A stretch of 64,000 bases of DNA, from positions 3,596,501 to 3,660,500 of the forward strand of contig NC_087385.1 of NCBI RefSeq assembly GCF_963675165.1, in the 5' to 3' direction. Each line of letters opens with the position of its first letter. The stretch's first letter is position 1. Source of the stretch: Halichondria panicea. Its lineage: Eukaryota > Porifera > Demospongiae > Suberitida > Halichondriidae. Below, piece by piece: positions 182 to 31,500 of this stretch. A model generated the notes under the pieces. It had not been told where the DNA came from, searched no databases, and worked only from the letters and a program-made list of their open reading frames with translations. The position numbers and the translations under genes are program-made.

Positions 182-538
182 TTTTGCTTTGTGCTTAATA
201 CATTCACGTTCATAAATAAAAATTGAACACATCGTATTAATTAATAGAGTGTGTTAGCAACTTCAGTATTATAGATCTGGAACATTGAGAGCAATATTTA
301 CATTCTGAAGAAGGTTTCAATTAGGTTGTGAATTGAAGTGGTGCAGTATATATATAATTATGCGTGTATAAAATCATACACACATGACGTACTGCTACTG
401 TGCGAGTGCAGGGGACATTAGAAAGAAAAAGTACAAAAGAGAAGTATACGTACGGACATCATGTGTACCTACATTGCTACAAGTAAAGTATTTCAGTCAA
501 AAAAGAGTACACATACATTTATATATTTTTGTTCAAAG
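182..538. other. Convergent intergenic spacer / 3' UTRs of COA3 and HNRNPU
   Basis: AT-rich sequence between two convergent genes. Apart from the COA3 poly(A) signal I see no coding potential or conserved element. It should hold both 3' UTRs. No clear AATAAA is visible on the minus strand for HNRNPU. Confidence 0.6.
215..220 (+). promoter_or_regulatory. Poly(A) signal of COA3
   Basis: AATAAA lies 34 bases after the COA3 stop codon, a normal place for cleavage and polyadenylation of a short 3' UTR. Confidence 0.6.
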
Positions 539-3500: not shown

Positions 3501-6500
3501 TGGTCCCCAGAATTGTGTACCGCTTCTCAGGGTACCTTGTATAGAACAAGATAGCCCATTACAACTAAGCTGTCACAAAGTTTGTGTTACACATTGTACA
3601 GGTTAATGGGGAAAATACAAATATACTACAGAATGAGCACTCAGCAGTGTCCATGTATAGTCAGTGGATTACTTACTTGCTGCAGTGTTTCTCAGCCCAA
3701 GTGGTCTTTCCAGAGGCAGGCAACCCAACCATCATGATCACTTCACACTCAGCTACTGATTTAGGTGCCTGAAGTATTCAACAGTAGTACGTATGAGCAA
3801 CATCACTAGACTTTAGTAAGGGCACATTTAATGTAAAATATGTCTTATTCACAGTGGCCACACGATATTAGGCATCTGCCAACAGCCACAAAAAGATGGT
3901 GGAATTGTCTAGGTAAGGTTACTAACACAGTATACCTGTGGCGCTGAAACCCTGCACTCCTCAGCAGCAGCCTGAATCAAGGCGTATCCTTCTACTCCCT
4001 CAGCCTCACACCACGGATCCCCCCCAAAGTTGATACTGAAGGCAACATTTTTGGTGGAAACACATGGGAAGAATGCTTCACCAGACAAAGACTCCTCTAA
4101 GGTAAAGGCTACACTCAGATCACAGCTGTTCTTGGAGAAGGATATTGTAGCAGGAGAATTCTCAAGGTCCTAGAATAAGAATATAGATGTGTACATACAT
4201 GACTTGTAGTGATACACATCTTCTACGTGTACAGTATGTTATGTTTGTAAAAATCGCACCAGGAAGCAGCCAATGACATCTCCTGGTCCATAAGACTCAG
4301 CATAGCTCTCAAACACGTTATTGACAACCTTCTTCCCAGTACTCCCGAATCCAAACGAGTGGTTGTCCTCTCCTAGCCCTTTGGAGTCATCTAATGTCCA
4401 ACCAACCCTACAGAGAAGTTCAAAAATGTTGACCCATGTCAAATCCAATAATTATTATTTAGTCATACCTTGCAGGGAATGTTTGAGCACTATTTAGTTT
4501 TTTGGCTAGGACAGAGTCTGTCCCGACCAATCAGATCTATTAATTAACAGCAATAAAGAATGACAAGAAGCGTACTGAATTTCATGCATTCTACGTAAAT
4601 AGGATGCATTTATAGTGCGCGTCAGCCTACTGATAGTCTAGTGCAAAGCTCTTCTTGTCCTTTAGCAAAATTCTTACAAGCCACAAAATTTTAGCTGCTA
4701 TGCTCATAAACACTCCATGGACATCACGTTTTAATAGCTATCGATTGACAAGAAGTCTCTGTGCTTTGAAGGTAAGATAAGCTTTGAGGTAACATCGAAA
4801 GAAGAACGAGAGGAAAGGTATTGAGGTATTGCATAAAAGGAACTGTCAATAGACCAAAATCTTTTCTCTAGGATGGTAGCTACATCTACAATATGTATAT
4901 ACAGGGTGTCATACAGGGGGGAAAGGGGGATATCCCCCCCCTAGCTCCAATTTCCCCCCCTTTTCAATTATGACTGAGTGTCCATAGCTGGGTATTGAAA
5001 TCACAGTCGACCTTTTTTTAGCAACATTTTCTCCTCTACTTCAAAATCCTGTATGACACCCTGATATATTTATATTGTACATTTTCGTGGGGCAAAATAT
5101 TCGTGGTGTTCGTGGTTGAAGCTCTGACCACGAATATTTTACCCACGAATGAACGACCTTGCCTACCTTTACCTGCAGTGCAAGCAGCAACCAAGAAAAT
5201 ATTCAACCACGAATGTGTTGCCCCCCCCCCGAAAATTACCTTATACACACATGTGTACTAGAATGAAAGCATACATGTACATGTATACTAGAAAAAACCA
5301 GCCTTAGAGCTGGCGTACTTAAAATAAGGTTTATTATGCTTAAAAACCAGGAAATATATACAGCACTGCACTGCAAGCGAACTATAGCCATATAACAGTA
5401 GATGTACAGCTAGCAGTGCAGTTCTGTGATTCCCTGTTTAATGAGTTACGTGTAATTAAGGTATCTACATTGTAGCTTGATGAGCTATACTATATGACAC
5501 ACAAAGAGTTATTTCGAGCATGCATATACCTGATGCATATACCTGATGGCGTGTGGATGTTCCTCCGTTTCTGGGAGTTCAACACTCACATTCTCTTCTA
5601 TTTTCACTTCATAGTAATAGCGGCCACCTTTGACCCCAGATGAGCCTCGTGTTGTTGCCCATAACCTAGCGAATCCCTGCTCTGAGAGACCACACCCACC
5701 TAAACCATCCTCTCTGATATCGAAGAACAGGTCAGAGGTGTCTGCAATTAACAGGCAACTTACGTACAATTTTTCACATGCATACTGTAATACATACACA
5801 TGCAACAGTACATGTACTCACACTTGTGCAGAGTGACAATACTAGCATCTTCTGGAGGCTGAAACTTGGAATCCATAAGCACTTGGCTGTCATCAAATGA
5901 ATCCGGCTCTTCAGGGTCAGGGGCTCGGGATGGGTCTGACTTGGTCTGTTCAGTTTTCACAGGGTGCTCAACGTCATGAGACCTCTTGGTACCAATTTGG
6001 GCAGACTCAGATTGATCCTGTCCATTCTCAGACTGGATAAAAAGAGAAGCAGCACTATGCACATAAGTAGTAGTACACGTACATGTCACGCACATGTGTA
6101 CAATAAGTACATGTAAAGACTCGTGAGTTACCACTGTTGCATGTTTCAAACACTGAAATATGCACACCATAAGAGCAAACCTTGGCCATAGTATCGGAGC
6201 TATCGGTTTCCATCTTCTGCTCCTCCAGCTCTGTTTTGACTAAACTCTCCTTAACCACAGGTGCATCACACGTTTCTACTGAGGAAAACCCAATCAATTA
6301 CTAACACACATATTAAAAACAATGTAGGTAGAGACAAGCAAGTAAATGCCGTAGAAATGAAACACCACAAGGTGCTGATGCCTTGGTGGAGGCGGCAGTA
6401 TGACACTAGCAGAAAGCTACTAGCTACATGTATTAAATACATGATACATGCACCTTGATCACACATGATGTACAATGGACATTGCAGGAAATGCTGCAAA

Positions 6501-9000
6501 ATAGTGAGAAATGATCGACCATAATTGTTGCTAGAAATAATGCTGATTTCCATAATTAATGGCTGCTGAACAGTAGCTTTGCAGCTTTTTTCTCACTCTT
6601 GAAGCTACCAATAGCTAGCGTTTTAGTGCAGAGCTAACTACTAAGTAGGTCCAGTAACATTCCATGGACAAGTTGTGCTACATGTACGTCACATTCTGAA
6701 AAGGCTGCAATGGCATTTTCAAGTAAGCAAAACTAGGTACAGTAGAACCTCGCTAATCTGAATAGAGCCAGACCAGACCCCATCCGAATACATGAAATTT
6801 CCGGATTAACGGATGTCATTAATTGATTATGAATATCATTAACGAACACACTTTTGTACATGTATTATGATATTACTGTGGCCAGAAGGGAAGCTGCTAG
6901 CTAGAATAGTATTTTATCTCAACTTTCTCTCCAATACAGTGAGTCTTGTGAATCTCTCTTTGTTTTCTTTGCAGTGGTCATTGTCTTGAGTGAGGTATCG
7001 AGCAGTTATTAATAGCTGATTCAGCAAAGCAAGTTAAATTGCGTATGCGCAGAAGTCTATTCTACTGACAGCCCCTCCTCTTTTCAGTTTGCTATTTTGT
7101 CCGGATTTGCGAGGTTTCAGACTAAAGGGGTCCGGATTAGTGAGGTTCTACTGTATAACTCGAAAACGAAGCATTATTTTGCAAATCCACAATATGAAAT
7201 CCAAGAAAACATGACTAGAAGCCTGTACAAGCTTCTACTTGCATTTCATTGATCCCTGCATGAGCAGCCGTAGCAGTCTACAGACAGACACACAAACACA
7301 CTACCGTATACCTCGCTTGTGTGTGCGCACCCGAGGCTGAACAATAGTGTGCATGCTTAATAATGTGGTCAATAGAGCATCACACCTCTGGGTTCACAAT
7401 ACAATATGAAATAAATTATGTGGGGTCATATCAAAATAGAGAGGCAAAGGTACATGTAGTAGCATTAATAAGCTTAGAGGAATTGTAAGTGGCTAAATAA
7501 CCTCTCTATAACCTGTACAAAAAATTAATATTTAAGCCTCAAAATAAGAATACGATTATTAAGAATACGATTATAATCAGGACCGGAACAACGACAGGCT
7601 TACCAGCTGATTTTTCTTCAGCTTTAGGTAGGTTCTCAGCACCTCCATCAGAGAGTGCACTAATATCAGCATCTGGTGCAACAGCAGCATCTCCTTCAAG
7701 ATTAACAGTGGTGTCAGTAGCACTGTCAGGGATAACGTCATTTGCACTACTGGCATCAACCTTTGTGGTGTCGTCCTCTGGCGTAGGCTGGTTCACACCA
7801 GTGTATACTTTAGGAGTGGGCTCAGTAGTGGTTGTATCCATGTCAGCTACCGGCTCGGCTTGCTCTGGTTCTGACGGAACAGGCTCAGAAGGTTCCTGCT
7901 GAGTCTCTGGCTTTATATCTGACTGTGCACCTGAACGAGAGAACCAGATAAGGTCATGACAGATGTGTGATGGTGAATGATTTACCAAAGATGACTCTAT
8001 GAGTAGTCTTACACATGCACGGTTACACGGTCTACAATGAAACGTACATGCATGTTTGTATACTTTTTCACTTATTGCGATATTTCCACACAAACTTTTT
8101 TGGAAAACACTTTTTAGGGCGATCAACCACCACGGAGAAAACAGCATACAACTCAAGATTTACAAAGAGCCGCTACTTTAAGGAATCCCCACCCAGGCAT
8201 AAAGCCTTGACTGTATGCATAGCGCATGGATTATTTATAGCATATCCGGCCTCTCACTCAATTTTGCCTAGTACATTGTGCATAATGATTTGAATGCCCT
8301 CAACTTGGCATATTTTACAAGTGCGCTGCACTGCACTGCATGATAATAAATTATTGTCTTTTAGTCCTATTGTTTTACATATTATACTTCAGTCTTGCAC
8401 AGTTCCATACCTTCTTGCTCTTCTTGCTGCACTGCTTCTACGTTAGGCTCCTCCTCCATCTGGGTCTCAGCATTACCCTCAGGTACTTCAGCCTCAGCCG
8501 CTCTACCCTCACCCTCAGCAGACTGTTCCTCAGTGGGCTGGTCTTCCGCGACACCCTCAATCTCAGCAGATTGTTCCTCAGTGGACTGGTGTTCTGGGAC
8601 ACCCTCACCCTCAGCAGACTGTTCCTCAGTGGGCTGGTCCTCCGGGACACCCTCACTGTCAACAGATTTTTCCTCAGTAGGCTGATCCTCCGGTACACTC
8701 TCATCCTCCTTGCGTCGATTGAAACAATTTGATTAGAACTGCTAATTATGTTAAACATGTTAAAATGTAGTGTGTTTTAAATAGAAAACTTAGGGTTTAC
8801 ATTTCAGTTTTTGAATTACCTAGGCTATACAATTTAAATAGCCAATAACTATAACTCACTTCTATTTCGTTGGACATTGCTTCTTGCAATCTCTGGGCAA
8901 GAACAGACTTTACACCAGCTGTAGTAAGTCCACGTTTTTTGAGCTCTTCTCTGAGTTCAACAACTTTTAACTTGGAAACATACGCTTCTATGTCTTCCAT
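539..9000 (-). CDS. HNRNPU: hnRNP U / SAF-A-like nuclear RNA- and DNA-binding protein (872 aa)
   Basis: Coding exons in transcript order: 9000-8860, 8708-8411, 7930-7604, 6278-6181, 6032-5822, 5741-5543, 4407-4260, 4169-3936, 3768-3677, 3535-3349, 3238-3070, 1466-1223, 809-539. They sum to 873 codons including TAA. Domains in family order: SAP DNA-binding motif (about residues 5-45); long acidic Glu/Pro/Thr-rich region (48-350) with four 16-residue repeats; SPRY (about 358-550, with RVGWTLDD and [10 protein letters not shown]); P-loop kinase-like domain (555-710) with Walker [10 protein letters not shown] at 567-575, YTILGTN and NYIIDQTNVY; then a Gly/Tyr/Arg tail with few RGG boxes, ending GYYGRY. 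The family binds scaffold-attached DNA and nascent RNA and affects chromatin structure and splicing. Human HNRNPU is of similar length (about 825 aa). HNRNPUL paralogues share this order, so the exact orthologue is not fixed. Exon boundaries were read by eye. Confidence 0.93.
1223..1466 (-). other. HNRNPU: HNRNPU exon 12 with tandem RYEYRG repeat
   Basis: This exon joins the kinase-like domain ([15 protein letters not shown], like NFTLPEVAECFDEI in human) to the Gly-rich tail. Near 1270-1326 a 30-base unit is duplicated in tandem, giving [10 protein letters not shown] then [10 protein letters not shown]. It shows growth of the low-complexity tail by unit duplication. Confidence 0.8.
1586..1750. 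mobile_element. MITE-like element with CGCTATACGGTA-type right end
   Basis: Inside the 1.6 kb HNRNPU intron 11. The left part has TATAGCTGGCGATT and TTTGACGAT. The right part has a matching GGCGATTTTTAATTTGGC block and ends in CCGCTATACGGTA. The end motif is shared with several other short elements in the window. Boundaries are approximate. Confidence 0.45.
5060..5240. mobile_element. MITE-like inverted repeat (TTTTCGTGGG...CCCCCGAAAA)
   Basis: In HNRNPU intron 6. It contains internal complementary blocks such as CGTGGGGCAAAATATTCGTG, ACCACGAATATTTTACCCAC and AATATTCAACCACGAAT, and ends in a C-run followed by GAAAATTACC. It resembles other TTTTCG-containing short inverted-repeat elements here. 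Edges are approximate. Confidence 0.45.
6740..7153. mobile_element. 414-bp TA-flanked MITE, pogo/Tigger-like ends
   Basis: It starts CAGTAGAACCTCGCTAATC and ends with the complementary GGATTAGTGAGGTTCTACTG. It is flanked on both sides by TA (6738-6739 and 7154-7155), the target duplication expected of Tc1/mariner-pogo elements. There is no transposase frame, so it is non-autonomous. It lies in HNRNPU intron 3. A longer relative with the same ends is at 16717-17397. Confidence 0.75.
8505..8696 (-). repeat. Four tandem 48-bp coding repeats in HNRNPU acidic domain
   Basis: Exon 2 contains four consecutive 16-codon units with consensus [16 protein letters not shown]. Individual units differ by a few residues (for example [16 protein letters not shown]). 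The units are acidic with regularly spaced Thr/Ser, and sit just after the SAP motif where vertebrate hnRNP U is also acidic but not obviously periodic. Confidence 0.9.
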
Positions 9001-9136
9001 GTTGTACTAGAAATAATAGGTACTAGGTGTAGCTAGAATCCTCCGACAGTTTTAATATTCAGGCAGGTATTTTGCGCTTGCATGTATTTTAATGGTTGAT
9101 AACCTTTCACCTCCTAGTCCACACAAAATTAATGTG

Positions 9137-9148
9137 TGCGCATGCGCA
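9137..9148. promoter_or_regulatory. NRF1-type palindrome
   Basis: TGCGCATGCGCA is a perfect match to the known NRF1 site (YGCGCAYGCGCR). It lies midway between the two divergent start codons. Similar cores occur inside repeats elsewhere in the window, so the motif alone is not proof of function. Confidence 0.6.
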
Positions 9149-9178
9149 TCACTCCATCAGGTTGCCAAGAAACAAGAA

Positions 9179-9190
9179 CAAAATGGCGGC
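9179..9190 (+). promoter_or_regulatory. YY1-type motif / tiny upstream ORF
   Basis: CAAAATGGCGGC is the long YY1 consensus often found just downstream of animal transcription starts. Its ATG opens a three-codon upstream frame (Met-Ala-Ala-stop) about 50 bases before the chosen EFCAB2 start, which could slightly damp translation. Confidence 0.5.
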
Positions 9191-9238
9191 ATAGTAAGTA
9201 AGACAGCCTCATTTCCATTCCATGAGACGCAAAAAATA

Positions 9239-9981
9239 ATGACAGACAAAACTGAAGAAACAGTGGAAGGTACACCCCTTATCGAGAAGGATCCCGTCCT
9301 TGTTGACATCAATAAGAAAATAGTAGAAGCATTTGATATTTTTGATCATGAGAGCAACAAGACAGCCGATGTGAGGTACGTACGTACATACGTAAATCAT
9401 ATATCTATGTGCATATGCGTACATGTAGGAGGTCAACATTGTTAATAATGCATAAAATAACATAGACAAACTGTCATTTTCGGAATAAGAACAAAAACAG
9501 CACTCATTTTTAATACCTTTCCTCCCTGCATGTATAAAATAGAGAAGTTGGCACAATCATACGATCTCTGGGTTGTTACCCTTCAGAAGCTGAGCTCCAG
9601 GATATGATTCAAGAGGTTGAGGAAGAAGAACCCACTGGCTTCATACGTCTTGACAAATTTCAGCCAATGATGGCCAGAGTAATGCTAGAAAAAAGGTTTG
9701 TTTTCCTTTAATTATTTTATTGTTACTCTCATTGACATTGTGCACACAGGTATCAACCTTCTTCAGAAGAAATTATACTAAAAGCGTTTGAGGTCTTAGA
9801 CCAAGATCGAAAGTCATATCTAACTGAAGTAGAGCTAAAGAAGTTCATGACTGAAGAAGGCGAAGCCTTTACGCCTGAAGAGTTGGAAGAGTTTCTCACA
9901 GCTGCTGTAGACCAGGAGAAAGGTGTGGTGCAGTACAGGGAATTTGTAACAACAATGTTACCTGATTCAGAACAAAATTGA
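9239..9981 (+). CDS. EFCAB2: EFCAB2 / DRC8, nexin-dynein regulatory complex EF-hand protein (173 aa)
   Basis: Three coding exons: 9239-9375, 9543-9695, 9750-9981 (522 nt, TGA at 9979). The protein reads AFDIFDHESNKTADVREVGTI, then RSLGCYPSEAELQDMI, VEEEEPTGFIRLDKF and AFEVLDQDRKSYLTEVE. This tracks human EFCAB2 almost residue for residue. It is a small calmodulin-like protein. The last EF-hand loop keeps D at positions 1 and 3 and E at 12, while the first loop is degenerate. EFCAB2 is DRC8, a subunit of the nexin-dynein regulatory complex that links outer doublets in motile cilia. The start was chosen at 9239 because the length then matches the family. An in-frame upstream ATG at 9092 would add 49 unlike residues running through the promoter. 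Confidence 0.93.
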
Positions 9982-10596
9982 AGTATTTTCATTCATTTGT
10001 TTATATGTTCACGCAATTTTCTCATTATTTTATGACTTTTCATTTGTATATTAATTTTACACTGTCGGGTGTACATGACTTTTACATGTACACAGTGAAG
10101 TAAGGTACATTATGTGACATTTTATGTGGAACAATTATTTGTACAACATAATGAGAAATGTTGGTTGTGTATGTAAAGATCTACAAAGTACATGCAGGTT
10201 CTAATTTCTATGGGAGGAGCTCTGGTGCAGTACAATCAGAAGACTGGTACTGTAACCAGGGTCGCTGGAGAAGTCATGCGGCTAGCCTCGACTCCAGCCC
10301 CTTGAATAGTGGCCTTTTTCAGCGGCTTGGAATCGAGGCTATCATGCAGCCGGCTGTGACAAAAATCAATCACCTAGATATTATATATATAGGATCAGAC
10401 ACTGAGTTTAATATGCTAGCTCGTTTTTTGAGGTCCATCCCCTCTAGATCTAGGTGCTGGAGAGCTAGCTCCAGTGATAGTGTCAAGCAGGATCAACTAG
10501 GAATAAAAGGTGCACAGTTTTCACAGTTTTTGTTGTATAATAATACTGTAAAATAAAATAAATTATAATATAAATGTCCATGTTTGATACAATACA
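9982..10596. other. Spacer between EFCAB2 and MOCS1 with a small foldback
   Basis: No convincing exon. At about 10270-10353 an imperfect inverted repeat occurs: GCGGCTAGCCTCGACTCCAG pairs with CTTGGAATCGAGGCTATC. A related sequence appears in the MOCS1 intron near 12290. The rest is AT-rich and should hold the EFCAB2 3' UTR and the MOCS1 promoter. Confidence 0.5.
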
Positions 10597-13500
10597 ATGA
10601 CATGTCTAATAGGTATCCATGATTGTGATACTGATCATGGTATAAGGGGTGAAAGTGATGGCAATCCTGTGGAACCTGATAAACTAGGGAGCAACATTTT
10701 GATGGATAGTTTTGGTCGAAAACACAACTATCTCAGAATATCTCTGACGGAAAGATGCAACCTCAGATGTGAGTTAAAATGCTGTATGGTGCCACATATC
10801 ACATGAGTATGAAGCTTTCCAATACTGGGTATTGCCAGGAAGTTCAGTTAATATTTGTTAACCGTTGTTTCAGGTGAGTACTGTATGCCTGAGGAGGGGG
10901 TGGAACTGTCTCCCTCCAGCGATCTGCTATCAACCAAGGAAATTGAAGTATTGGCTCGTATGTTTGTGTCACAGGGAGTGAACAAAATCAGACTCACGGG
11001 AGGGGAGCCTCTGGTCAGGAAGGATGTAGTGGAGATTGTCCGTAAGTATGTGGTGTGTGTGCTGGGTGTCAGTATATAGCAGAAAACTGAGGAAATATTG
11101 TTTTGGTACTCTTTACTCACTCTTTCATTTTAGGAGTAATGATTCACGTGTTCTTTACTTACAGGAATGCTCAACTCCATCCCTGGTTTAGACTGGATTG
11201 GCATGACAACTAACGGGCTCACCCTCTCCCACAAGGTTCGACAACTGAAGGAGGCTGGGCTCGGAGGACTCAATGTCAGTCTGGACACACTTGTTCCTCA
11301 AAAGTTTGAGTTCATCTCTCGAAGAAGGGGGTGGGAGAAGGTTATGAGGGGAATTGACGATGCACTGAAGCTGGGGTTTTCCTCTCTCAAGGTATGATCT
11401 CTTTTCACCCTTGAGAAGGTCTGCCTGTATGTACATGTATAGTGCTAGCCATTCCTCTGATGGCATGCATGTATATAGAGATACCCTAACACCATACCCT
11501 CGCGAAAGTACGTCTCCTAATAAGCCTACATTTCCCCCAGAAAAGAGTGGCCGTATTTTCGCGAGGGTACGGTACATGCGCTTACCAAAACACAAGGCAT
11601 TCCGAATTCTAATTAAGCAAAATGTTCGATCTGTTTTAGAAACGTGAATGTTGATATTTTGCTACTTACATCTACGTTAAAGCGTATTCTGTAGTCTGCC
11701 TTCTGCCTCAAAGAAATAGTAGTTAGCTGTAGGTTAGCCTCCTTTACAAGGCCTTAGAATACTGACTGCTTGCGTATGCGCAAAATTATTGGATATTTTC
11801 CCTGCATGGAAAGTTTCCCATTAAACTGACATTTTTACCAGAAAAATATCGTCCTGAATAAACAGACAAAGAGTACAAAATATTAATATTAACAGAGCTA
11901 TATAACTAGCTAGCTAGACAGGGTTGTAGGTTTGTTGCAGCAGCTATTTTCTTTCTGATAGAGTCTACATGTAGACTTTCACCAAGGTTAGTATTAGATA
12001 AGCGTGGCCTGTCCATAATATAGGCTAGTTTCATCTTTCACTTCGTTCAGATGATTATCATATCCACACTGTTGCAGGCTGTGAGTCTGTTTGCAGGCTA
12101 AGGGTACTTATTAGAATGCTATCAGCTGGGCTAGAAACCTTCACAATCGAACTTCTATCTACTTCCTTCAATCCACTTCCGTTTGTTTGACGTCATTGTT
12201 TTACTGAGCATATACGATGTTATCCACAAAGTCCTCAGTTTCTGGGAATTATGTGGCGCATGCGCAAACAGTCACTACCAGGAACATCTTCAGTGCGGCC
12301 TGGGATCGAGGCTAGCTGTAGGTATGCTCAGAACGATGATGGAATAATTTTTGTTTATTATGCCTCGGTGCGCTCATATGCACTGAAACCATTATGTTGT
12401 GTGGAACTGGGAACTGTTGTATGCATGTGTTTTTGTCCTGTTATGTAATAGCTTCTATAGGCTTCTAATCACTACTGCAAGTCTTTTTCTCAGATTTTAG
12501 ATGTTTTGATTTTCAAACTATAGCTAAACCATAGCTAATTTTACTTACTTTGAAGACATTTACTATTTAGACTCGTCAGGAGCCCATAAATAAGAGAAGG
12601 AGCGGCTGACTACGGTGATCACGTTTCGTAAGTGGTTATGACCGCATTTCCATATATATGCAGAGTCACTTAAGTGGTTGAATCCCTACATGGGGATTAC
12701 ATTTCGTAATTGCCGGTGAAACCGCACTTCCTTGTATGGAAGCGACTAAGTGCTTGCAAACCGCAGCCCTGTATTGCGTATAACACGTGTTACTGATCCC
12801 CGAGTATACGTTGAAGTTAGCCGCTCTTTCTCTTATTTATGGGCTCCTGGACTCATGTAGCAGAACGCAACTTTGCCATTCTACTTAGTACTTACACTAG
12901 AGCTAGCTATTGGTAGTTGCAATAGCGAGGAAAACTGCGAAGTTCCACTCCCAATACAGGGAGTATTAATTTTTTTCTAGTTGACATTTGTCAGACCGTG
13001 CTGCAAAATGATCGGTCATTGACTTCGTATACTAAGTCAGCATGCTATCTCAAATTCCTTACCACTGGAGCAAACTGTCCTCCAGGAGTCCACTTGACCC
13101 CGGAGCGCATGCGCTAATAATCCAGTTTCTACGGTATAGCACTGCTTTAAACTGCTATTAACTTTTCTTACACGTGGCAGATTAATTTTTATTCTATATA
13201 GTGCTCATGTTCTATGTTATCTAGCCAACTCAGCATATTTGGTCGGTCAATAGTGTCCGCTCAAGCTGACAGTTCAGTATAGTAGATTATGAGCATAGAA
13301 GTGAAGTAACAGGAGTAATACAATTAAAGTAGACTAGCTAGAGGTATGCTGAGATGTAGCCTCCTTCGCAGCCTCTCCTTTTTCTGTTCTTTGTCACACA
13401 GGTCAATAAGATAAAATACGGTAAAAATTGGAGGAACAAAGAAAGAAAGAACGAACCGTCCAAGAAAAAGGAGAGCCTGCCTCGCTAAGTCGCGTGACGT

Positions 13501-16500
13501 GGCACAGTGAAAATGAGCATGGGCTTTCAGCAGATGGGCAGAGCCTGACAGGCAACAAAGCCACAGGATGCCTACGCATTGCAGACTCACTTATAAAAGC
13601 TCTAGCCGACAGACGTAGACGTCGACATGGCTTACCTAGCATATAAAGACTAAAGTTTAAGTCTATCCTTGAGCCTAGCCTCAAGTTGAGGCTTGAGTTA
13701 TTATTATTATTATTATGCCTCGAGGCGTAGCCGCACGAGGGATACGACTGTGTGTGTGTCTGTCTGTGTGTCTGTTCCAGCTGTAACTGCTCAACGGTTG
13801 CAATGCGACGAAAGCTAACAGCTTCTATAGGCTTCTAGCCACGTTCTCTTGGATTTTGATTCGTGGATTAGCAAACTAAAGCTTCTTTCTCGAGTTATGG
13901 CTAGTTTGACTCACATTGAAGGCTGTTGCAGTCTCTTCAGAATCTTTCATAGCATCATCTGTTTGCACAAACTTTCTATTCAACATATGAGTTAGCCTTG
14001 CACTAAAGCGCTAGCTTTTTGTTAGCTACAATACTCAGAAAATATCTGTTAAAACAGCTAGCTAGCAGTAGCCATTTGTGAAATTGATCTCTTTGGACAC
14101 ACCCTTTAATTATTCCTATGGATGTAATGCGCATGCGCGCTCATTCCCCATGTGTGAGAAATAATATCCAAGATCCAGATCCAGATCCTCCTGGCAGAAT
14201 CATCTTTGTCTTGAAGACCTGGTAAGCCACAAAACACTACCATATAACAAAATATGCATGTACACAGGTCTTTTCTTCTTACATATTATATACACTGAAC
14301 TACAGATCCTGGAAGAATCAATTTTCTTCTTTCTTGAGGTCCTAGTAAGCCACATAATACAACAATAGATGCATGTAAATAAGTCTTTTCTTCTCAGTGA
14401 CTTTATATAGATAAGTTAACTTTAATATAAAATTCATTATAGAAACTAATATAACACTCTAATACTTTTCAGCGAAAGCAAAAACATGGCGAGAGGCATT
14501 AGCACAGCGCCAGCTTGAACACTAGTTATTGAGCAGTAGTCTAGTCTAGATACATTTATAGATACAGTGCATTTGTGAGAATGACATGACAATGTTGCAA
14601 GGTTGTGACCTCGTGAGTACTGACAGAGTGAGACTAATTTGTGTGCATGAGACAGTTTCCACAGAGGCACAAGCACTAATGTCGAATGTTCCCTTAGTTC
14701 GATACATGTAATAGATTGTATTGATGATGTTAGATCGATAGGGTCCAGTCAATTCCATAGTCGTGCAATCCTATTGTAGTAGTTTTAGAGGTTCTGCTCC
14801 TTTTGGAAACTTTATGGCAGTAGAACCAGCTCTATAGTGGATGCGGAAATAATACCTGAAAGATAAGCACTCAGGGTCTACATTGTCTGCTGTAATTTGA
14901 GACACTCGAATAGGAGCGTTAATCGAATGTGAGGTCTTGAAGCTCAAACAATAGAGAGAGTGGGAGCATATTGAGTTTGATAAGGCGAGTCTTGTAGTCT
15001 GTAGTTCTGCTGTAATTATCCGAGGATAAAATTGGTTGCCCTTGCCCTTCTAATTTGGATAGTGTGATTTACCAGGGCAATCTATAGCTTCTTCTTTATA
15101 TGACTTGGACTAAAACATTCCTTCTGATGACATGAAGGGATCTGTAGGATTTTTCAATGTTGGCATGTCAGAAGTAGTTGTCTAGGATCTGGGATAGGTT
15201 CCTTCTTTGCCCAGGTCCAAGGGCTATTATCAGATACAGTAGTACTCTAGCCTTTCATGCTTCATCTTGTAGAGCTAACTTAGTAAAAGTCTACATACTG
15301 TTCTGTAGCTAGCTAGCTTCACACACTGCTTTGCCTCTAGTTCCTGGTAAATACGCTCCAAGTACTGTGTCATAGTGTGTGGGAGGACACAGATATTGCG
15401 GTTTACTCTTGCCCACGCTCAATTAAATTTGGCTACGTCAGTAGCAGATCACCAGACTTAGCGGGGCAGGCTCTCCTTTTTCTTGGACGGTTTGTTCTTT
15501 CTTTCTTTGTTCCTCCAATTCTTACCTGTGTGACAAAGAACAGAAAAAGGAGAGGCTGCGAAGGAGGCTAGCTGAGATGCACTGTAAAGAATTAGCCTGG
15601 AGTCTTAGAAATATGGCAAAGAAGCAACAACTCCACAATCATAATTCTAGCTTTCTTGCTTTCTACTCTAGGGATCCTTTTCCATTGTTCCTGGTATGGG
15701 ATCATCACTATCTGGGATCACGATCCTTGAGCAGCTGTAGCAGTCTACACACATGCATACACACACACAAACACACTACCATATACAGAGAGTCCTAATC
15801 CGGTCCTATACTTATTAGACTGCCTCATCTTCCAGAACTCTATCAGTCTCGTAAGCCACGCCCCTTCACTCGAAGAAGGGTCTGGCAACAGTGTGCATGT
15901 GGAGTTGTCCCCTGCGCCAGGATCTTGCCACTGCCAATCAGATACATGTAGTAGATTTGTAAAACGTCATTATCAATCCACTCATATCATAAAACCACAC
16001 CCACATGATGTCATGGATTAGCATATATGGATAATAGGAGTCTGACATGCGTGCATGAATCACTACAAGTTTAGTACATTGATGTCATTGCGGATCCAGG
16101 AATGTTAAGAGGGAGGTTCCAAAACAGTTAATTTTATAAAAAAATAAGGTCATCACTTTTCCTAAGCAATGAGCATGCGCATTAGAGAGCCCTGCCCACA
16201 TATCAATTATGAAATCAGCCTAGTAACTCGGATCACGATCATTCAAGCTGAGTTGCTAGCTTGGTAAGTTGATCTCCAGTGTGTTCTTATGTGAAAGGGG
16301 GGTTCCATGGAACCTGTCTGGATCCGCCATTGCGTCCAGGCCACAATGCACTGAACTTGTAGTGATTCGTGCACGCATGTTGGACCTCCTCTGGGATAGG
16401 CTGAGCAGCTAATCTGTCACGCCCACTGTTGAAGAATGAAATTCACTTCACATGCACACTGTTACCAGAGCCTAGTTAGGCGTGGCTCGACCGTCCCTGA

Positions 16501-19500
16501 CGGGAGGTCAGATTGCAAGCCTATCTGGGATTTGTTCTAGCCCTATCGGATTGCAGCATTTTTCACGTGCAGCCACGCCCAACTAGATCATACTGTTAAA
16601 CAATAGTCCATGTGTGGATAATTATTCTTAAGCTGGTAAAGGGTAGAAATACAGAGGTACTGAAACAAACCTTTGCATTATAATTGTCACACAATTGCGC
16701 TACAATTTACCAAATACAGTAGAACCTCGCTATTCCAGACCCCTTTAGTCCGAAACCAGAGGAGGTCGGACATTACTTGAACTTTCACTAATTATGATCT
16801 TTTAAAGACATTCCAGGTCAAATTGCTTTTCGTTTTTTAGTAGAACATGACTGGATCTAGGCGGATCTAGCTAGTATGGGTATTATGTGCTGATAAGGGT
16901 TAGGTCCAGTAAAATCATAGACACCAAAAACAACTAGCTGTCAACAGATTCAGCGACAGAAGCCGTGCAGAAATATTGTCTCATGAATCAGTCGCCCTCT
17001 ATAACATAGACTCGTGATTAGGCCGCCCAACATTTAGAGGGCTGCTGAAATAGAGACTACAGAGAAGTACAGTAGACGCTACTGCTGAGTCAGCAAAAAC
17101 GAAAAGCAATTTGGCCTGGAATGTCATTAAAAGGTCATGATTAGTGAAAGTTCAAGTGATGTCCGAAACCTCGCAAATCCAAACAAAATGGCAAACTGAA
17201 AAGAGGATGCGCAATCTAGCTGAATCAGCAATAATTATATTAATAAACTGCTCAATACCTCGCCCAAAATAATGGCCACCGCAAAGAAGACGAAGAGAGA
17301 GCTTACAAAACTCACTGTATTGATCCGTTAATCCGGAAATTTCATGTATTCGGATGGGGTCTGTTCCGGCTCTATTCGGATTAGCGAGGTTCTACTGTAG
17401 TCTGGCTCCCCAACTGATCGTAAATTTATGCATTAGACTTAGACATAACAATTATCCTATTGTACGGGTATACCAGCTTGTATATATTTGCGAAGTAGTG
17501 CTGTACCTCACTCAAACTATGCCAATAACTCTAATCCATTTTGTTTTTGTTTTTTTGGCATGCATCCTATACTAATTTTAGCAAGGATTTTCCCTGGGTA
17601 TCCCCCTTTAGTGTGTCTAGGATGTCCCTGGGTTTTTCTACAGTATAATTGTGGCTGTACATATACTATGTTAATTTGTATAGGTTAGGATAACAATACA
17701 CATTGTAGGGTTTCATAATATGAAATAGATCCAAGCTGCTGTGCGAACACTCCTTATATTATATGTTGTCTCCTCTGCAAACATGTCGCCACATCGCACA
17801 CGCTAACATACCTGTAGGTGAACTGTGTGGTCATGAAAGGACTGAATGATGACGAGATTTGTGATTTTGTGGCTTTCACTGAAACCAAGGTATGAATTAG
17901 TTCGTAGGTTGAACGATTGCTACATTTATGTGCTACATGTATATACGTTCATGTTTTGTATGATTTAGTCCGGCCATTAACATCTTGAAACTCTGTATAT
18001 TTACACAGCCAGTAGACGTGAGATTCATAGAGTACATGCCTTTCGACGGTAATCGTTGGAACCTGGCTAAGTTTGTGCCGTACCGTTCCATGCTGACCAG
18101 AGTGCTTGCTCAGTGGCCGAACCTGGAAAGACTAGAAGACAAAAAGAATGACACATCAAAGGTAATAAATGAGGCAGCAGTACAATGAGTTGTACTATAA
18201 TTATTACAGACATCTGTTCAGTCGCATTGATACATTTACAGTACATTATGTACAAGGACTGTTAATTAAATGACATGTAATCCACAAGGATCTGCTTTGT
18301 TCGTTGATGATTTTCAAATTCATTTCAGGCATACAAAGTACCTGCGTTTGCGGGACAGATAGGTTTCATCACCTCAATGAGTCAGCAATTTTGTGGCACT
18401 TGTAATCGGATCAGATTGACCGCTGATGGAAACCTAAAGGTGTGTGTATGGTGTGTGTATTGGGTGCGGGTACATTTACAATAGGTGTGTGTTCATCAGA
18501 AGTACATATACAGTTTTGCGTGTATGGGCACGTTACTATAATTACATAATACATAATTATACATGACATGTTTTTGATTCATATCAGATGATTAGCATTG
18601 CAATATCTATCCCTTGTACTCCGCTAGTGATTTGGTTGACAGAGTCCAAGTTTGGCATCTAACATTTTAGTCTCGGGGAATTAAGCCTGTCCAGTTTTGT
18701 TCTGGCCTCTTGTACTGTTCAAAGATTACATAAACACAAGTATCACGTTCCTCTGTTTTGATGCAGGTATGCTTGTTTGGTCCAGTGGAGGTGTCCCTGA
18801 GAGATGCACTGAGGGGTGGGGCTACTCAGGAGGAGCTGCTGGACATTGTGGGCATGGCAGTCGGTAACAAGAAGAAACATCATGCAGGTGGGTGCCTGCT
18901 GCATGTGTGTGAGATCCAAGTAGCTGGCGAAAGCATTCCATTCCACCAACACATGCAGAATTAGGTGTTCCTTTTGTTGGAGACACTTCAACCATCATTT
19001 CTATTCCTGCAATCATCGGCTATTTTTTATCCTATGCAGGAATGCTGAATCTGCAAAAGATGAAAAACAGGCCAATGATACTCATCGGTGGGTGATACCA
19101 CTTTACTTGTCTTTGTAAGTCGGCATTACACCCATGTCAACATCAACGCCAAAAAGTGTATAAGTCATATCTACAGATTAGTCTTAAATAGTACTGCAAT
19201 AACATCTCCCAAATTTCTTTGTTTCATTGTGCAGGTGTGTTTGCTGTAACTGTAAGTAGAATGTCAAATCAAGTTTCAAATTATTTATTTTCTGCAAATT
19301 TCTGCACAAGCACCAGTAATTATGATAAATTACCTCGAAAGACTACACACACCACCAAAAGCACAAGTAACCGTGACAATGAAAACAATGATACCACAAT
19401 CCATAGATTGACACACGTCGATCACCATGGCAATGCCACGATGGTCAACGTCGGCTCGAAATTTGTTACCCATCGAAAGGCTGTGGCCAGTGGAAAGATC

Positions 19501-19878
19501 ACTTTGTCTTCAGAAGCATTCAAGCTAGTCCTTGACAACCAATTGAGCAAGAAAGGCTCGGTGTTAAATGTTGCTCAAATTGCAGGATTAATGGCTGCCA
19601 AGCAGACTGCCAATCTCATCCCCTTATGCCACAACATTCCACTGAGCAACGTCTCGTTAAAATTTGAACCTTGTGATTCGGACTGTACTGTGACGATATA
19701 CTCGAGCGTAGAGTGTGTGGGTGTGACTGGAGTGGAGATGGAGGCTCTCACAGCTGTTTCTGTGGCATTGCTAACGATATACGATATGACTAAGGCTGTA
19801 GCGAAAGATCATGTGATCTCCGACATTCAATTGGAGGAGAAAGAAGGAGGAGCTTCAGGAAAATTTAGACGTACATGA
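10597..19878 (+). CDS. MOCS1: MOCS1, molybdenum cofactor biosynthesis MoaA-MoaC fusion (571 aa)
   Basis: Exons: 10597-10768, 10874-11041, 11165-11391, 17818-17889, 18009-18161, 18329-18439, 18767-18887, 19040-19087, 19235-19878 (572 codons, TGA). The MoaA half is a radical-SAM GTP 3',8-cyclase. Its first [4Fe-4S] motif CNLRCEYC is rebuilt across the exon 1-2 junction. LTGGEP, TTNG, NVSLDTL and [11 protein letters not shown] are present, as is the second cluster motif FCGTCNRIR...KVC. The MoaC half makes cyclic pyranopterin monophosphate and shows [42 protein letters not shown]. Together they perform the first step of molybdenum cofactor synthesis, mitochondrial in animals. The first exon is the weak point: only [16 protein letters not shown] onward is conserved, and a mitochondrial-targeting exon further upstream may be missing. 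Intron 3 is 6.4 kb of repeats. Confidence 0.94.
11495..11569. repeat. Short hairpin element in MOCS1 intron 3
   Basis: TACCCTCGCGAAAGTACG at the left is complementary to CGTATTTTCGCGAGGGTA at the right, with about 40 bases between. It resembles the TTTTCG-cored short elements found elsewhere in the window. Confidence 0.55.
12575..12852. mobile_element. Foldback MITE in MOCS1 intron 3
   Basis: About 33-base inverted ends: CAGGAGCCCATAAATAAGAG at the left and CTCTTATTTATGGGCTCCTG at the right, extending into AGGAGCGGCTGAC / GTTAGCCGCTCTT. The interior has shorter repeats such as CGTTTCGTAAGTGG and CATTTCGTAATTGC. ACTC occurs just outside both ends and may be a target duplication. No coding capacity. 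Confidence 0.7.
13356..15571. repeat. Inverted repeat pair with about 130-bp arms
   Basis: The left arm (13356-13492) and the right arm (15456-15571) are near-perfect reverse complements. Both carry CTCCTTCGCAGCCTCTCC, CTGTTCTTTGTCACACAGGT and GGAGGAACAAAGAAAGAAAG. The left arm has an extra insert of about 18 bases. The pair could be the ends of one decayed element of about 2.2 kb or two opposite insertions of the same repeat. No transposase frame lies between them. Confidence 0.65.
15848..16500. repeat. Nested palindromic repeats in MOCS1 intron 3
   Basis: Three concentric complementary pairs are visible. The outer pair is AAGCCACGCCCC.. / ..GGCGTGGCT with GCATGTG / CACATGC. The middle pair is CATGAATCACTACAAGTTTAG / ACTTGTAGTGATTCGTGCA. 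The inner pair is TTGCGGATCCAGG / CTGGATCCGCCATTGCG. The inner GCGGATCCAG end recurs at about 37311. This looks like insertion of one foldback element into another. Confidence 0.5.
16717..17397. mobile_element. 681-bp TA-flanked pogo/Tigger-like MITE
   Basis: Starts CAGTAGAACCTCGCTATTCC and ends ATTCGGATTAGCGAGGTTCT followed by ACTG, with TA on both sides. An internal inverted pair, CATTCCAGGTCAAATTGCTT (about 16810) against AAGCAATTTGGCCTGGAATG (about 17105), makes a large hairpin. It shares ends and internal CATGAAATTTCCGGATTAAC-like sequence with the copy at 6740-7153. It sits in the last kilobase of MOCS1 intron 3. Confidence 0.7.
19087..19095 (+). promoter_or_regulatory. MOCS1: MOCS1 5' splice site overlapping Gly-Gly-stop
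   Basis: Exon 8 ends ...ATC G and the donor is GTGGGTGA. If the intron is spliced, translation continues into the MoaC exon (ILIGVFAV). If it is not, the same bases read GGT GGG TGA, giving MILIGG and stop. A C-terminal double glycine is needed for activity of the MoaA-only product MOCS1A in human. The overlap would let one site choose between the two proteins. Confidence 0.8.
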
Positions 19879-20269
19879 CTAACTTTTTGCTGACAAAATA
19901 TCATTGTTTTACACAAATCATGTATAAGCACATAAACAACAAAACTGCATGAAAAGATTAGCTACTAACGTGCATCTATATAAACTTACTATATACACTA
20001 TTGAACCACTTATATACTCACAATAAAAAATGTAAAAAAAGTTTGCCCCTAGATAGGTTATAATTTTATTACATTTATCCACAGAAGCAGAAATGAATAT
20101 TAGAGAGTGCCAATGAATATGCAATCTTTTGGAGAAACAAATTTTTAGTTGTCATAATGACATAATACTTGTCACCTATACATTGTAAATGCATTGAGCC
20201 CACTATAATGCTCAGTTTTGCTTGTGGATGAACGTAACAGTAAAACAGGTCCTAGGGGCGAGGCCTTTT
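19879..20269. other. Convergent spacer / 3' UTRs of MOCS1 and TRAF-a
   Basis: AT-rich. AATAAA at 20022-20027 is a likely MOCS1 poly(A) signal. No open frame or conserved element is seen. Confidence 0.55.
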
Positions 20270-22797
20270 TTAGTAAATAGCTAAACCACTCAGGTCCACC
20301 TGAGCTTTTATGTAGATAGTGTTTCCTTTCGTAAAGTTCTCATCTTGAAGAACTGATTGCTTTGCAAATTTGGGAAATCCACTAGCGATGTTCATTTCGT
20401 TCTCCGGCTGTTGAAACGAAGGTGAATTGAGGTCAGGTGCAAATGCTTCAGTGATGCTAGCACTCGGGTTGTTTTGGTTGATGAGTGTGAACCTCACAGA
20501 TTGCTTGAAGGGCCACTGTAGAAGGTTGTCATGCTCAGACTTCATGAGAACAAAGAACACTGAGATGTGAGTACCTTTTCCAATGCCATCTCCATTCAAG
20601 TACACTCGAGTGCAAATACGATACCCCTGTGGACTCGTGAAGTAAGGCGGGCTGTAAATGCTCACTGTACGACGATCAATTGCCTCTCGGTACCTCCTCC
20701 TGATGTCTGGAATCTTCCAAACAAAGCTGCCATTCGTAGTACGTACATCAAGGATGTCCTGCCTTAGCCTTAGTTCATCAACAACAATAGTCTGCTGGGT
20801 CACACTCTCTTGAAGAATCTGCACATTCTGGCTAAGTTGCCTAATCTGGATTGTGTTGGTCTCACTGCTTTCTACAACATTGGCTAGTTGCCTGGATGAG
20901 ACACTAGATCCACCATCAACCATTACACGCTGACCAAATGACCTTACACTGGGAGATCCCTTGGACTTGATCTTCTTGGAGTCAACTCTACCGTCGGTCT
21001 CTACGCTATCTAGGAGCTCATGGCCATGGCGAACAGTCATTTCCAAGTTTCTGAGCCTGTCATCTAGTTTCGTGATCATATCGTCTTTCTCTGCAATAAG
21101 CTTATCTTTAGCTTTCATCTCCTCGTCCTTTTTCTTTATGACCTCCAACAACTCACTTCTATCGGCACCCAGAGTATCCACTTTCTCCCAAAGGACAGCC
21201 ATTTTCTCGAACATCATCAGTGTGTGCTGTTGTACATGCTGACCCATGGAAACTTTCTTTCCCTACAATAGTGTACAATACCATTTGCAGTCAGTGCATG
21301 CACCATTATATGGATACTTTCTCTCCTTACAATAGTGTACAATACCAGTTGCAGTCAGTGCATGCACAATCCTTGAGCAATAATTAATGCACTACTTGTG
21401 TATTGTGAATTGTGTGATAATGATTTTGCACGTTGTACAATACAGTGACAAACGCATTATTCAGTTTGTCAGATATGAATACTGTGCGACGACTAGGTGT
21501 ACGTTATAGCGAACAATAGAAAGCAAACACAGAACATAAGCGACATCTGAAGCTGTTAGTACCTTGAATCTACAGCCAGTTATCTGTTGAACTGGACAGT
21601 CCATTTCATACTCAGTACAATCATCTTCAACATGCTGTTGAAACTGTGTAGAAAACAAACATAAAACCAATGGCAATGTGAGAATGTATATTATTGTATT
21701 AAAAACCATGAACACAGAAGTAGTCATTTCACAATAGGCGAGTATAAAATAATACATGCACTTTTGACTTACATCACCCCGTCTTGGTAGGTTTGTATAA
21801 CAATAGTCACACACAACAGGATACTCTTGACAAACACTCTTCTGATGTTCTTCTACTTCATCTTTTGTAACCATTGAAGTACAATACGAGCAAGCAATAG
21901 TTTTCTTCTGGCACTCTCCAGAATGCTGATCCTTTAGGGACCTTGGAAATGCTTTACCACAGCCTAGTTCACACGGTGTTGTTGCATTCCGACATTGAAG
22001 CCTCATGTGATCCTGTATAATCAATCAATAGCAACCACTAAAAAGGAAATTCATGCCAAGCCAGGTGCATAATTTGGGGAGATCCCTGGGACTACCCCCA
22101 ATAATTCTTATCCCCAGGTGCTACACCTAAAGTTGCATGAATCTAGTTGCCACACACACCTACATGTATGTCTATAAAAATGCTTTATGTCACAACATAA
22201 TTATGTCAGAACACTGCAAGGACAGACTCAGCCAAAACACACCTCTGCTTCCACTAACAGACCCTTCCAGCCACACATCAGAGGGCAGTCAACTTGCAGA
22301 CGATTGATTTCTTTTATACACCCTTTGTCTTTTCGAACCTATGAAATGATTATGAATCAAACAGAAACAGTAAGAGAATTTGCTGCTCATACAGACATCA
22401 TGTCACTATCACTTACATGCTTCTTGGCAAAAGCTGTTGAATCCACTGGACACTGCAGTGCACTACGGAAATACAAAGTTATAATTATGATTGCTGTAGT
22501 GGTGAGAAAATAGCATAATTTATACCTATACACGTACACATACCTGTCATTAGCTAGCATTGAGTCAATGCACACAGCACAGAATCTACAGCCACAAGTG
22601 ATGAGCTGCACTGGCTCGCGAAGAATCTTCATGCACTTGGGGCACTCGAGGGTAGCAATGTCTGATCTCCTCATCTCGCCTCCGGACGGATGGTAAACAG
22701 TAGTATTTGAAACATCGAATCCTTCACTTGAGTGTATCGATACTTCTCCTGGCTCTGGCTCATGATCACTTGAAACGAATTCTTGATTTGTGGCCAT
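20270..22797 (-). CDS. TRAF-family adaptor / E3 ligase, full domain set (TRAF-a, 569 aa)
   Basis: Exons: 22797-22544, 22462-22417, 22338-22243, 22012-21773, 21643-21563, 21262-20270 (570 codons). Order: RING (C52, C55, C68, C70, C73, C76, then CPVD); TRAF-type zinc fingers (DCPLMCGWKGL, RNATTPCELGCGKAF, CSYCTSMVTKDEVEEHQ, CDYCYTNLPRR, CPVQQITGCRFK); a charged coiled coil (MFEKMAVLWEKVDTL..., KKKDEEMKAKDKLIAEKDDM); and a C-terminal MATH domain (GSFVWKIPD, SPPYFTSPQGYRICTRVYLN, DGIGKGTHISVFFVLMKSE). TRAFs trimerise on receptor tails and build ubiquitin signals for NF-kB and JNK pathways. The RING has Cys where most have His (CGCRFC), and Asp as the last ligand, as in TRAF6. It is not assigned to a single vertebrate orthologue. 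Confidence 0.9.
21252..21366 (-). repeat. 64-bp tandem duplication across the TRAF-a last-exon acceptor
   Basis: The segment ACTTTCTTTCCCTACAATAG..GTCAGTGCATGCAC is repeated 64 bases later as ACTTTCTCTCCTTACAATAG..GTCAGTGCATGCAC. The first copy contains the 3' splice site (read on the minus strand as ACTATTGTAG then GGAAAG). The second lies in the intron and reads ATTGTAAGGAGAG, a decayed second acceptor. Confidence 0.75.
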
Positions 22798-28500: not shown

Positions 28501-31500
28501 GCTGTACGCTCAACTAAATTACTCAACAATGGTGTCCTAGGATAATTATGTATAATTGTATATATTGTTACAGTTTTTTAGTGACAGAAGTTGTCAGAAA
28601 GATGTTCTAGGCTTCACTGTCCTTTGCAAATGTCAAGAAAAGTTCAAGATTGGGGAATGGGAGGTATGTTTAATCCAGACGTTGTGTGAGTTAATTGTGT
28701 GGGGTGACATAATTGTACGTCCAGGGCAATCGCCTCCCTGTAAATTAGGATTCCCAGCAAATCGCATATCATTATTATACTCGAATTATGAAGCTATAAC
28801 ATGAAGGTCATGCAACTCTCATTATATAATTATACACAGTGTACTCAAAATTCATGTAAGAGGCGGGATATATGCTATAAAAGAATTCGGTGTACTCATG
28901 CGTCACTAAAAAATAGCTGCTGTATGAAATCTGAGAATTGTATGTGGCATTACATATAAAACAGGGTTTTTCATCGTTGGTTTTATCTCTCTCTCTCTAT
29001 TTTGTGTATCTGCATGAGTAAAACTACAATAGCGCACTTCTGTTACATTCTACAGTTGCACAGCGAAATTTGTGAGGAGATACAGAAAGTGACACCTAAA
29101 CCTGCAGTAGCAAATGTAAGTTGAATGTAGCAGTAGTTTACAGATGAGTGGACTAGTCGTACCTGTCTTAGGTATACCAAGAGTTCCTTGGTTATACTTG
29201 TGTAGTCTACTAGTTGTTACCATTTTACTTCGATATTTACATATCATTTTATAAAAATTTATTTCCAAGGTCCTGCCTCAAGATGTAGCTCAACTCGAAA
29301 ATGGATTGAAGCAAACACAAACTGAACTGTCGGAGCAAAAGAAACAGGTCTGTGCCAGATTGTTGGACTAGAAAACTTGTGTATAATTATTACAAAGACA
29401 ACATGACCATGCAGTGTTACTGTAACAGTAGTTACCAGTATAGCACAGTGTTACAGTAGTGGCTAGTGCATGGAGCAGGTGTTACATTGGTTAAAGCAGT
29501 GACAGTGTGACCGGCGTTACAGTAGTTACCATAATGCTCGTCAAATATACCCGCTATAAGCTATATGGTACTACTTGTCAATGCTCGTAATTATTACTGG
29601 CTATCGATATCGTGGAGCAGGTAGTTGGTGAAAAAGTTTCTACCCATTCGTATGAAATACCCCATTTAAAGATTTCGTATATTAAAATATTCGTACAGCT
29701 CAGGATAGTGACGTTGAATCTATTGCGGTAGAATAATTTCGTATTTTGCTCTTCAATACAAAATATCCGAAAATTTCCACCGTACGAAATAACCCGCTAT
29801 ATAGTATAAAAAACTGATTGGCTAGTGGAAGTATTTTATCCAACTCAATCTCACTTATTAGTTCACTCAGAAAATTATGTAGCTAGGATGAGTAGTACAG
29901 TGATCAAATTGTTGCTAATGACCTAAAAATAATGCTTATAGACACTGTTCAAAAAGTGTCACGTGATAATTATTATGAGTGAGGGTATTTCTAAACTTCC
30001 TAAACAGTGTCTAACTATACTGTATAGTGCGAAATTTTCGAGGCACTTATAATTATTTCGTGGAGCATTTCGTTGCATAATGATTGCTAACCCACAAAAT
30101 CCGCGAAAATTAAGTCCCTCGAAAAGTTCGCGCTATACGGTATTATTTACATACGACATGCATGAGTGTATATATATTCAGCAGAAATATGGCTTAGTCC
30201 CTGCTAAACACTGAGCTAAAGTCACTTTTGCATGTAACACCTAAATAACCTAGAAAAGCTGTAAAGCTGCATTGTTTCAGCAACAATCACAGTTTATCAT
30301 TTTCCACCGAGGCATCAGCACCTCACAGTACTTTCTGTTATTGGTAATGATAATTGATGGAATACATCCATGATATTAGTGCAGCCTTACCATTATAATT
30401 ATGTCTTGGAATATAGGGTAAAGCTGACAGTGCATGTGTGCATGTTTGTGTCTGTGTGTTCCAGTGCTCAACGATTGCTAAGCCTATAGCCTTGGATTTT
30501 GATTTGTGGATAATTGCTTACATTTGAAGGCTGTTGCAGTTAGTGTTTTCAGAATGGTGCAGAAAAACCTGCTCATACAAAGTTTTTATTCGACTTATTT
30601 ATTAGCCTCGCAGTTTCTAGGTATTTTATGCAATAGTGAAAATATCTGCAAGCTGCACGTACTGCATGCATGCAATGTAAAAGCAGTACTCATTATTGTG
30701 AAATTTGTAGATCTACCCCAGAGGAAGTCGGGACCACTTGACCTTTCACCTAATTACCTCTAATACATTTGAACATTCATCGACGCATTTAGTACCGCGG
30801 TGCTTAAACGTTACTATACATAGGTACAATGTATGTATACATTGTACCTACAAACTCCAGTATACTGGAGTTTGCAGAATCTTTGCAACACACCCATAAA
30901 AGCGTGGAGCGTTAAGCGTTCCTTATATGAAATATGTGTACACTGTGGTCTCAATGTAGAGCATAATTATAAGAAATGCACAATGCTCAAAACTTTTATT
31001 TATGTGTTGCAAAGATTTATGTGTTGCAAAGATTCTGCAAACTTCGGTTATAGTGCTGCAAGTTGATTGGCAATTTTTAAGTGATAATTATGAACTATAT
31101 ATGAATGTAAATTTTGTATAGGTTAATAGGTGCACCAAAAAGCTTGAATCGTTAGAGAAAGAAGTGCGCCAGCTCAGACTGTTGACTGACGAGGTACGAA
31201 GGGGTGTGGCAGCTTATGGGATTGCCCCCAGTCCAGGAAGCTCTTCAAGAACAGCAGCTGATGGAGAGCCTGCCGTGGTGAGCACTGTTGGTGTGTGCAC
31301 AAAAGTGTGTGTCATCTATCTAATCATAATTATATTTGTCTATAGCATATCCATATTTTTATTTTTTATCTAGAGCTATAATTATGCTAGTTGTTCAATG
31401 TCTTTAATAAATTTGTTTGCACATGCACCACTGTTTACAGAACTCCCGAGTACTGGACCAAATTCGAGAGACAGTCACGCAACTTGTGTCAGACATCGAA

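Follow-up and report, generated by a model that had tools for sequence, protein, structure and literature searches.

A Gly-Gly stop overlapping a splice donor in MOCS1 of the sponge Halichondria panicea suggests a splice switch between MOCS1A and a MoaA–MoaC fusion

MOCS1 combines a MoaA-type and a MoaC-type part in one gene, and alternative splicing at the join between them can yield either a separate MoaA-type protein, MOCS1A, or a fusion, MOCS1AB. The key papers on this gene are reportedly the original comparative study by Gray and Nicholls from 2000 and a study by Mayr et al. from 2020; in human MOCS1, three such splice types occur. According to published accounts, splicing of human exon 9 leads to MOCS1A or MOCS1AB, and of the bicistronic human mRNA the first frame alone is said to be translated (PMC9607355). 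Cattle have splice types I and II, which involve exon 10 and intron 10 and in which the MOCS1A part of the fusion is inactive; the accompanying legend gives splice sites for both types, that is, two splices and not retention, and such splice types are said to occur in vertebrates and invertebrates (PMC3034695). In Drosophila, splicing of Mocs1 (lxd) produces a short Mocs1A and a long Mocs1A–Mocs1B (PMC5817353). The first-pass annotation of the locus described below had invoked human exon 9 splicing, and the human account bears this out, as do those for cattle and fly. Furthermore, a comparable system is described in Neurospora crassa, where intron 1 of nit-7 encodes the double glycine: the unspliced mRNA, which goes up under nitrate induction, yields NIT-7A, and the spliced mRNA yields NIT-7AB, whose MoaA-type half is inactive (PMC7232280). 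A third nit-7 form, with a donor 9 nt downstream (1469 versus 1460), is not essential, and combining A with a separate B failed to support growth; in the authors' view, the mechanisms that free the B part arose after the fungal and animal lineages had separated (PMC7232280).

The window, which is the whole 64,000-nt stretch of H. panicea DNA that was analysed (NC_087385.1, positions 3,596,501–3,660,500), contains a complete MOCS1 gene on its + strand, with a complete MoaA part (radical SAM and Mob_synth_C) followed by a complete MoaC part (Table 1). Nine coding exons joined by GT...AG introns encode a 571-aa protein, which matches Radical_SAM (PF04055) with 112.6 bits and Mob_synth_C (PF06463) with 129.4 bits. 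The last exon matches MoaC (PF01967) over positions 1–136 of 136 with 171.7 bits, in agreement with the earlier claim that the spliced frame runs into a complete MoaC exon. The radical-SAM motif CxxxCxxC starts in the exon that carries ATG 10597 and is split over the following junction (CNLRC/EYC), and the sixth of the nine exons contains what we take to be the second cluster and substrate motif.

Table 1. Features of the H. panicea MOCS1 gene (positions within the window; a slash marks an exon–intron boundary).
Feature	Position	Strand	Basis or remark
Predicted first coding exon, MLARFLRSIPSRSRCWRASSSDSVKQDQLGIK(G), mitochondrial-signal-like	10413–10509	+	alternative to ATG 10597
MOCS1 coding exon, ATG 10597	10597–10768	+	10613–10768 if joined to upstream exon
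MOCS1 exon, MoaA part	10874–11041	+	joined reading
MOCS1 exon, MoaA part	11165–11391	+	joined reading, domain match
MOCS1 exon, MoaA part, after 6426-nt intron	17818–17889	+	joined reading, domain match
MOCS1 exon, MoaA part	18009–18161	+	joined reading; PF06463 match in own genome
MOCS1 exon	18329–18439	+	joined reading; PF06463 match
MOCS1 exon, MoaA part	18767–18887	+	joined reading, domain match
Last MoaA exon, 48 nt, phase 1/1, end ATC/G	19040–19087	+	
Gly-Gly-stop sharing bases with fusion donor	19087–19095	+	GGT 19087–19089, GGG 19090–19092, TGA 19093–19095
Switch intron, GT...AG, 147 nt; removal would give MOCS1AB fusion	19088–19234	+	joined reading
Candidate second donor TTT/GTAAGT	19115–19120	+	19 nt past stop, 27 nt from donor 19088
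Last exon: linker and complete MoaC domain; stop TGA 19876–19878	19235–19878	+	
AATAAA, likely poly(A) signal of MOCS1	20022–20027	+	

Several further features lie within or near the gene. In intron 3, the stretch 16715–17399 is bounded by TA and carries 22-nt terminal inverted repeats (95%) and an inner 72-nt inverted pair; it looks like the remnant of a small DNA transposon. The same intron holds inverted repeat copies about 2 kb apart at 13357–13497 and 15449–15570 (78 nt at 94%, 47 nt at 100%). TRAF/MATH-domain ORFs at 20273–21262 (− strand) and 31411–32115 (+ strand) flank the stretch that follows MOCS1. About 18 kb from the gene, an ORF at 38372–39037 (− strand) matches the molybdopterin cofactor-binding domain PF20256 with 107.5 bits and presumably belongs to a gene for a molybdenum enzyme of xanthine dehydrogenase/aldehyde oxidase type.

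At its 5′ end, the gene offers two possible starts. The length of 359 aa that the first-pass annotation gave for the MoaA-type product holds for ATG 10597, but a start in the predicted exon 10413–10509 (MLARFLRSIPSRSRCWRASSSDSVKQDQLGIKG) looks better and is likely, in which case MOCS1A would be 386 aa long. With ATG 10597 as the start, the N-terminus is acidic (net −5 over 30 residues). The product of the upstream exon, which joins in phase 1 to 10613 over a 103-nt GT...AG intron, is basic and rich in R/S/T to a degree that 0.09% of 3337 bacterial MoaA windows reach. In helical moment it is ordinary, with 18% of background windows as high, and the donor of the exon (AAG/GTGCAC) pairs weakly with U1 (−5.3 kcal/mol). 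Human exon 1 splicing separates mitochondrial from cytosolic MOCS1A (PMC9607355); by analogy, such a choice may exist here too.

At the end of the MoaA part, a stop codon and a splice donor share bases. The last MoaA exon ends ATC/G, and the intron behind it opens with GTGGGTGATA; if unspliced, the donor GTGGGTGA reads GGT GGG TGA, exactly as first annotated, correct to the base. Read in this way from ATG 10597, the 359-aa chain has a Gly-Gly C-terminus. When 19088–19234 is spliced out, the frame stays open into MoaC, and the resulting 571-aa MoaA–MoaC chain is without a free Gly-Gly. The Gly-Gly form aligns to the MoaA model TIGR02666 over columns 1–336 of 336 (379.8 bits), and the fusion form up to column 335 (375.1 bits). 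Joined reading, domains and this model together uphold the earlier proposal that the gene is MOCS1, that its donor overlaps a Gly-Gly-stop and that splicing would choose between a MoaA-type end and a MoaC fusion. The letters by themselves are moderately unusual for a donor, since a Gly-Gly-stop occurs in the right phase at 4 of the 1604 G/GT sites on both strands of the window and at 2 of its 43 donor-like G/GTRRGT sites, the MOCS1 site included. What makes the overlap convincing is the placement of the Gly-Gly on the last column of TIGR02666. A DNA search of plasmids with the junction sequence gave no match.

We read the last MoaA exon as a two-way splice switch between MOCS1A and MOCS1AB, whichever route by-passes the donor, and assign this reading a probability of roughly 0.82. 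Use of donor 19088 would remove the Gly-Gly-stop and fuse MoaA in frame to MoaC; in the resulting MOCS1AB, the MoaA half would lack a free Gly-Gly and be inactive as a cyclase, leaving MoaC as the useful part. When donor 19088 is not used, the Gly-Gly-stop would stay, and MOCS1A would be the active GTP 3′,8-cyclase. From the sequence, we infer that both mRNAs are made. A fused gene would in this manner retain an enzyme whose C-terminus has to be free, through a stop and a splice donor that share bases; if such a gene were annotated with one fused model alone, the active MOCS1A would be missed.

The C-termini of bacterial MoaA proteins bear on this reading. A search with the MoaA part confirmed at least 592 bacterial relatives, of which the best 80 were kept. 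A Gly-Gly C-terminus is present in all 80 of these best matches, a count that was obtained with six search peptides, none containing Gly-Gly and one of them, QKMKNRPM, lying near the tail, so that it may favour similar tails. The stop is visible in 79 (71 + 8, with the stop directly after Gly-Gly), and the sequence of L062 ends on Gly-Gly. No extension beyond Gly-Gly was found among these best 80 of the at least 592 relatives and, because nothing stands behind the Gly-Gly in them, the fusion should be dead as a cyclase. Human MOCS1A ends in the same letters as the Gly-Gly form of the sponge, and the human fusion reads ILIGVF. Among solved structures, 13 sequences were matched, the best being 1tv7 (211.6 bits); its alignment ends at residue 327, short of the tail, and is therefore silent on Gly-Gly. 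Literature searches returned only an unrelated match for the letters MILIGG, no match for a MoaA C-terminal GG motif and no title on sponge MOCS1 for MOCS1 combined with sponge.

These data also bear on whether the fusion might be constitutive, with a Gly-Gly-stop that is either vestigial or a chance product of the donor consensus. Taken by itself, the motif is no great rarity, given the 2 of 43 sites, but its Gly-Gly lies exactly on the last MoaA column, at which all of the best 80 of the at least 592 relatives end, and another source of MOCS1A was not seen in the sponge's own genome; we consider this explanation highly improbable. Wnt family searches gave 10 matches in this genome and none in 14 prokaryotic control genomes, as befits an animal. 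The genome searches covered a 131-Mb assembly of 39 contigs, in which the single MoaC match is the MOCS1 gene of the window and the two Mob_synth_C (PF06463) matches both lie inside that gene. No second gene for a separate MOCS1A is thus seen, with the proviso that gaps or weak matches in the assembly could hide another MOCS1A locus. MoaE, which acts in the next step of the pathway, is found in the same genome, so the molybdenum cofactor pathway is in use. At G000:C7:1695055-1707763, three exons match MoaE (MOCS2B-like); one of them contains an in-frame TGA, which suggests two copies or a broken one.

The first-pass annotation had framed the choice as one of retaining or splicing the intron; both readings work, but the candidate donor at 19115 and the option of skipping 19040–19087 in frame had been overlooked. 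We scored donors by pairing with a U1 5′ end; one of eight genome copies (L082) has the same ACTTACCTGG core and differs in one upstream base. Donor 19088 pairs with −9.4 kcal/mol, the second best of eight MOCS1 donors scored (−5.5 to −12.5 kcal/mol), and the acceptor of its intron has a pyrimidine share of 0.71, equal to the best in the gene. With so strong a donor and so pyrimidine-rich an acceptor, by-passing may be rare.

Joining 19115 to 19235 would give the same 359-aa product, with the rest of the intron removed. Under the 50-nt rule, decay is not expected for a stop so near the last junction, and mRNA spliced at 19115 should accordingly be spared the usual decay because its stop is close to that junction. 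At −5.4 kcal/mol, this donor pairs with U1 less strongly than all eight other scored MOCS1 donors, and 10% of all GTs on the + strand of the window pair as well as it does; decoys as good as 19115 occur in the first 80 nt of four of the eight other MOCS1 introns. The GT at 19092 pairs better (−6.4 kcal/mol) but would give a 366-aa chain without a Gly-Gly end. GTAAGT or GTGAGT is found in the first 80 nt of none of the eight other MOCS1 introns, and in 5000 shuffles GTAAGT fell within 50 nt after the stop in 2.9% and anywhere in 8.8%. Donor 19115 is therefore a weakly supported lead for a MOCS1A made without intron retention. As the by-pass route, we tentatively put this competing donor first, at somewhat below an even chance, slightly favoured over plain intron retention.

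Retention of the whole 147-nt intron, as in nit-7, would also produce MOCS1A, and we regard it as a serious if tentative second option. The intron is short, the product would be the same 359 aa, and in Neurospora the non-spliced mRNA encodes NIT-7A and increases with demand (PMC7232280); on the other hand, cattle types I and II are two splices (PMC3034695), a second donor is at hand at 19115, and donor 19088 and its acceptor are strong. A further possibility is that the fusion arises mainly by skipping of 19040–19087, inclusion of this exon going with the late donor or with retention. Being 48 nt long with phase 1 on both sides, the exon is symmetric, so its skipping keeps the frame (...HHAG/VFAV) and would give 555 aa, or 571 minus 16 residues. 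About one third of exons are symmetric by chance, however, and donor 19088 pairs well with U1, which makes skipping improbable as the main source of the fusion. Intronic polyadenylation was not favoured as a route to MOCS1A, as AATAAA and ATTAAA are both absent from 19088–19234; the AATAAA at 20022 is the only copy of either within 19040–20300.

MoaC might also be translated as a second cistron of the Gly-Gly mRNA and not from the fusion. Near its start, the last exon contains an ATG (M367 of the fusion), followed by a stretch that is rich in R/S/T and poor in acidic residues, as are 0.5% of 3337 background windows. The helical moment of this stretch is ordinary, however, with 48% as high, the human mRNA is said to yield the first frame only (PMC9607355), and Neurospora did not grow on A together with a separate B (PMC7232280). 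We give this scenario very little credence.

The MoaA half has close bacterial kin. Among the matches listed, the closest bacterial MoaA proteins (L002–L005; three Rhodothermales and one Bacteroidetes record) are 59–62% identical to MOCS1A, the next being at 48%, and their tails read NRPMILIGG. In two of these four closest loci among the matches listed (L002 and L003), moaA and moaC are same-strand neighbours. A tree built from the animal sequence plus 30 of the 80 loci places the former with the four and with L019, at a fork drawn open with support 86/78. This kinship hints at gene transfer between Rhodothermales-like bacteria and eukaryotes, in either direction. Derivation of the whole MOCS1 gene from a Rhodothermales-like operon was considered and dropped, since MoaC does not have the closeness seen for MoaA: matches at 48–53% occur in 12 of 20 other bacterial genomes, as in the four.

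In bacteria, the MoaA and MoaC domains are both complete, as they are in H. panicea, but are encoded by separate genes. Mammalian MOCS1 shares with the sponge gene the order of MoaA exons followed by a MoaC exon, and the position of the switch at the last MoaA exon; use of the splice forms is shown in mammals, whereas in H. panicea it is read from the DNA. Drosophila Mocs1 resembles the sponge gene in that splicing sets a short A form against a long A–B fusion. Like H. panicea, nit-7 has an intron-encoded double glycine and splicing that gives an AB fusion; it also has a further donor downstream, for which 19115 is a candidate counterpart, and its intron is likewise in phase 1 if nucleotide 1460 counts from the ATG. 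It differs in that its A form comes from retention and not from a late donor, in having one intron only and in belonging to a fungus. The first-pass annotation had proposed that the switch was already present in the common ancestor with this animal, which may be so. The Neurospora case suggests, by analogy, that it could predate animals or have had several origins. A bolder reading, which we hold to be rather unlikely, is that one phase-1 intron splitting the first Gly codon has served as the switch since before fungi and animals split, and that H. panicea operates it with a pair of donors spaced 27 nt apart, adjusted to the demand for molybdenum cofactor as in nit-7. Taken together, the comparison predicts for one more animal genome a switch already established in mammals, flies and a mould, at a junction that is directly testable in RNA. 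Human, cattle, fly and Neurospora provide published examples of this kind of switch, and H. panicea adds another animal to them.
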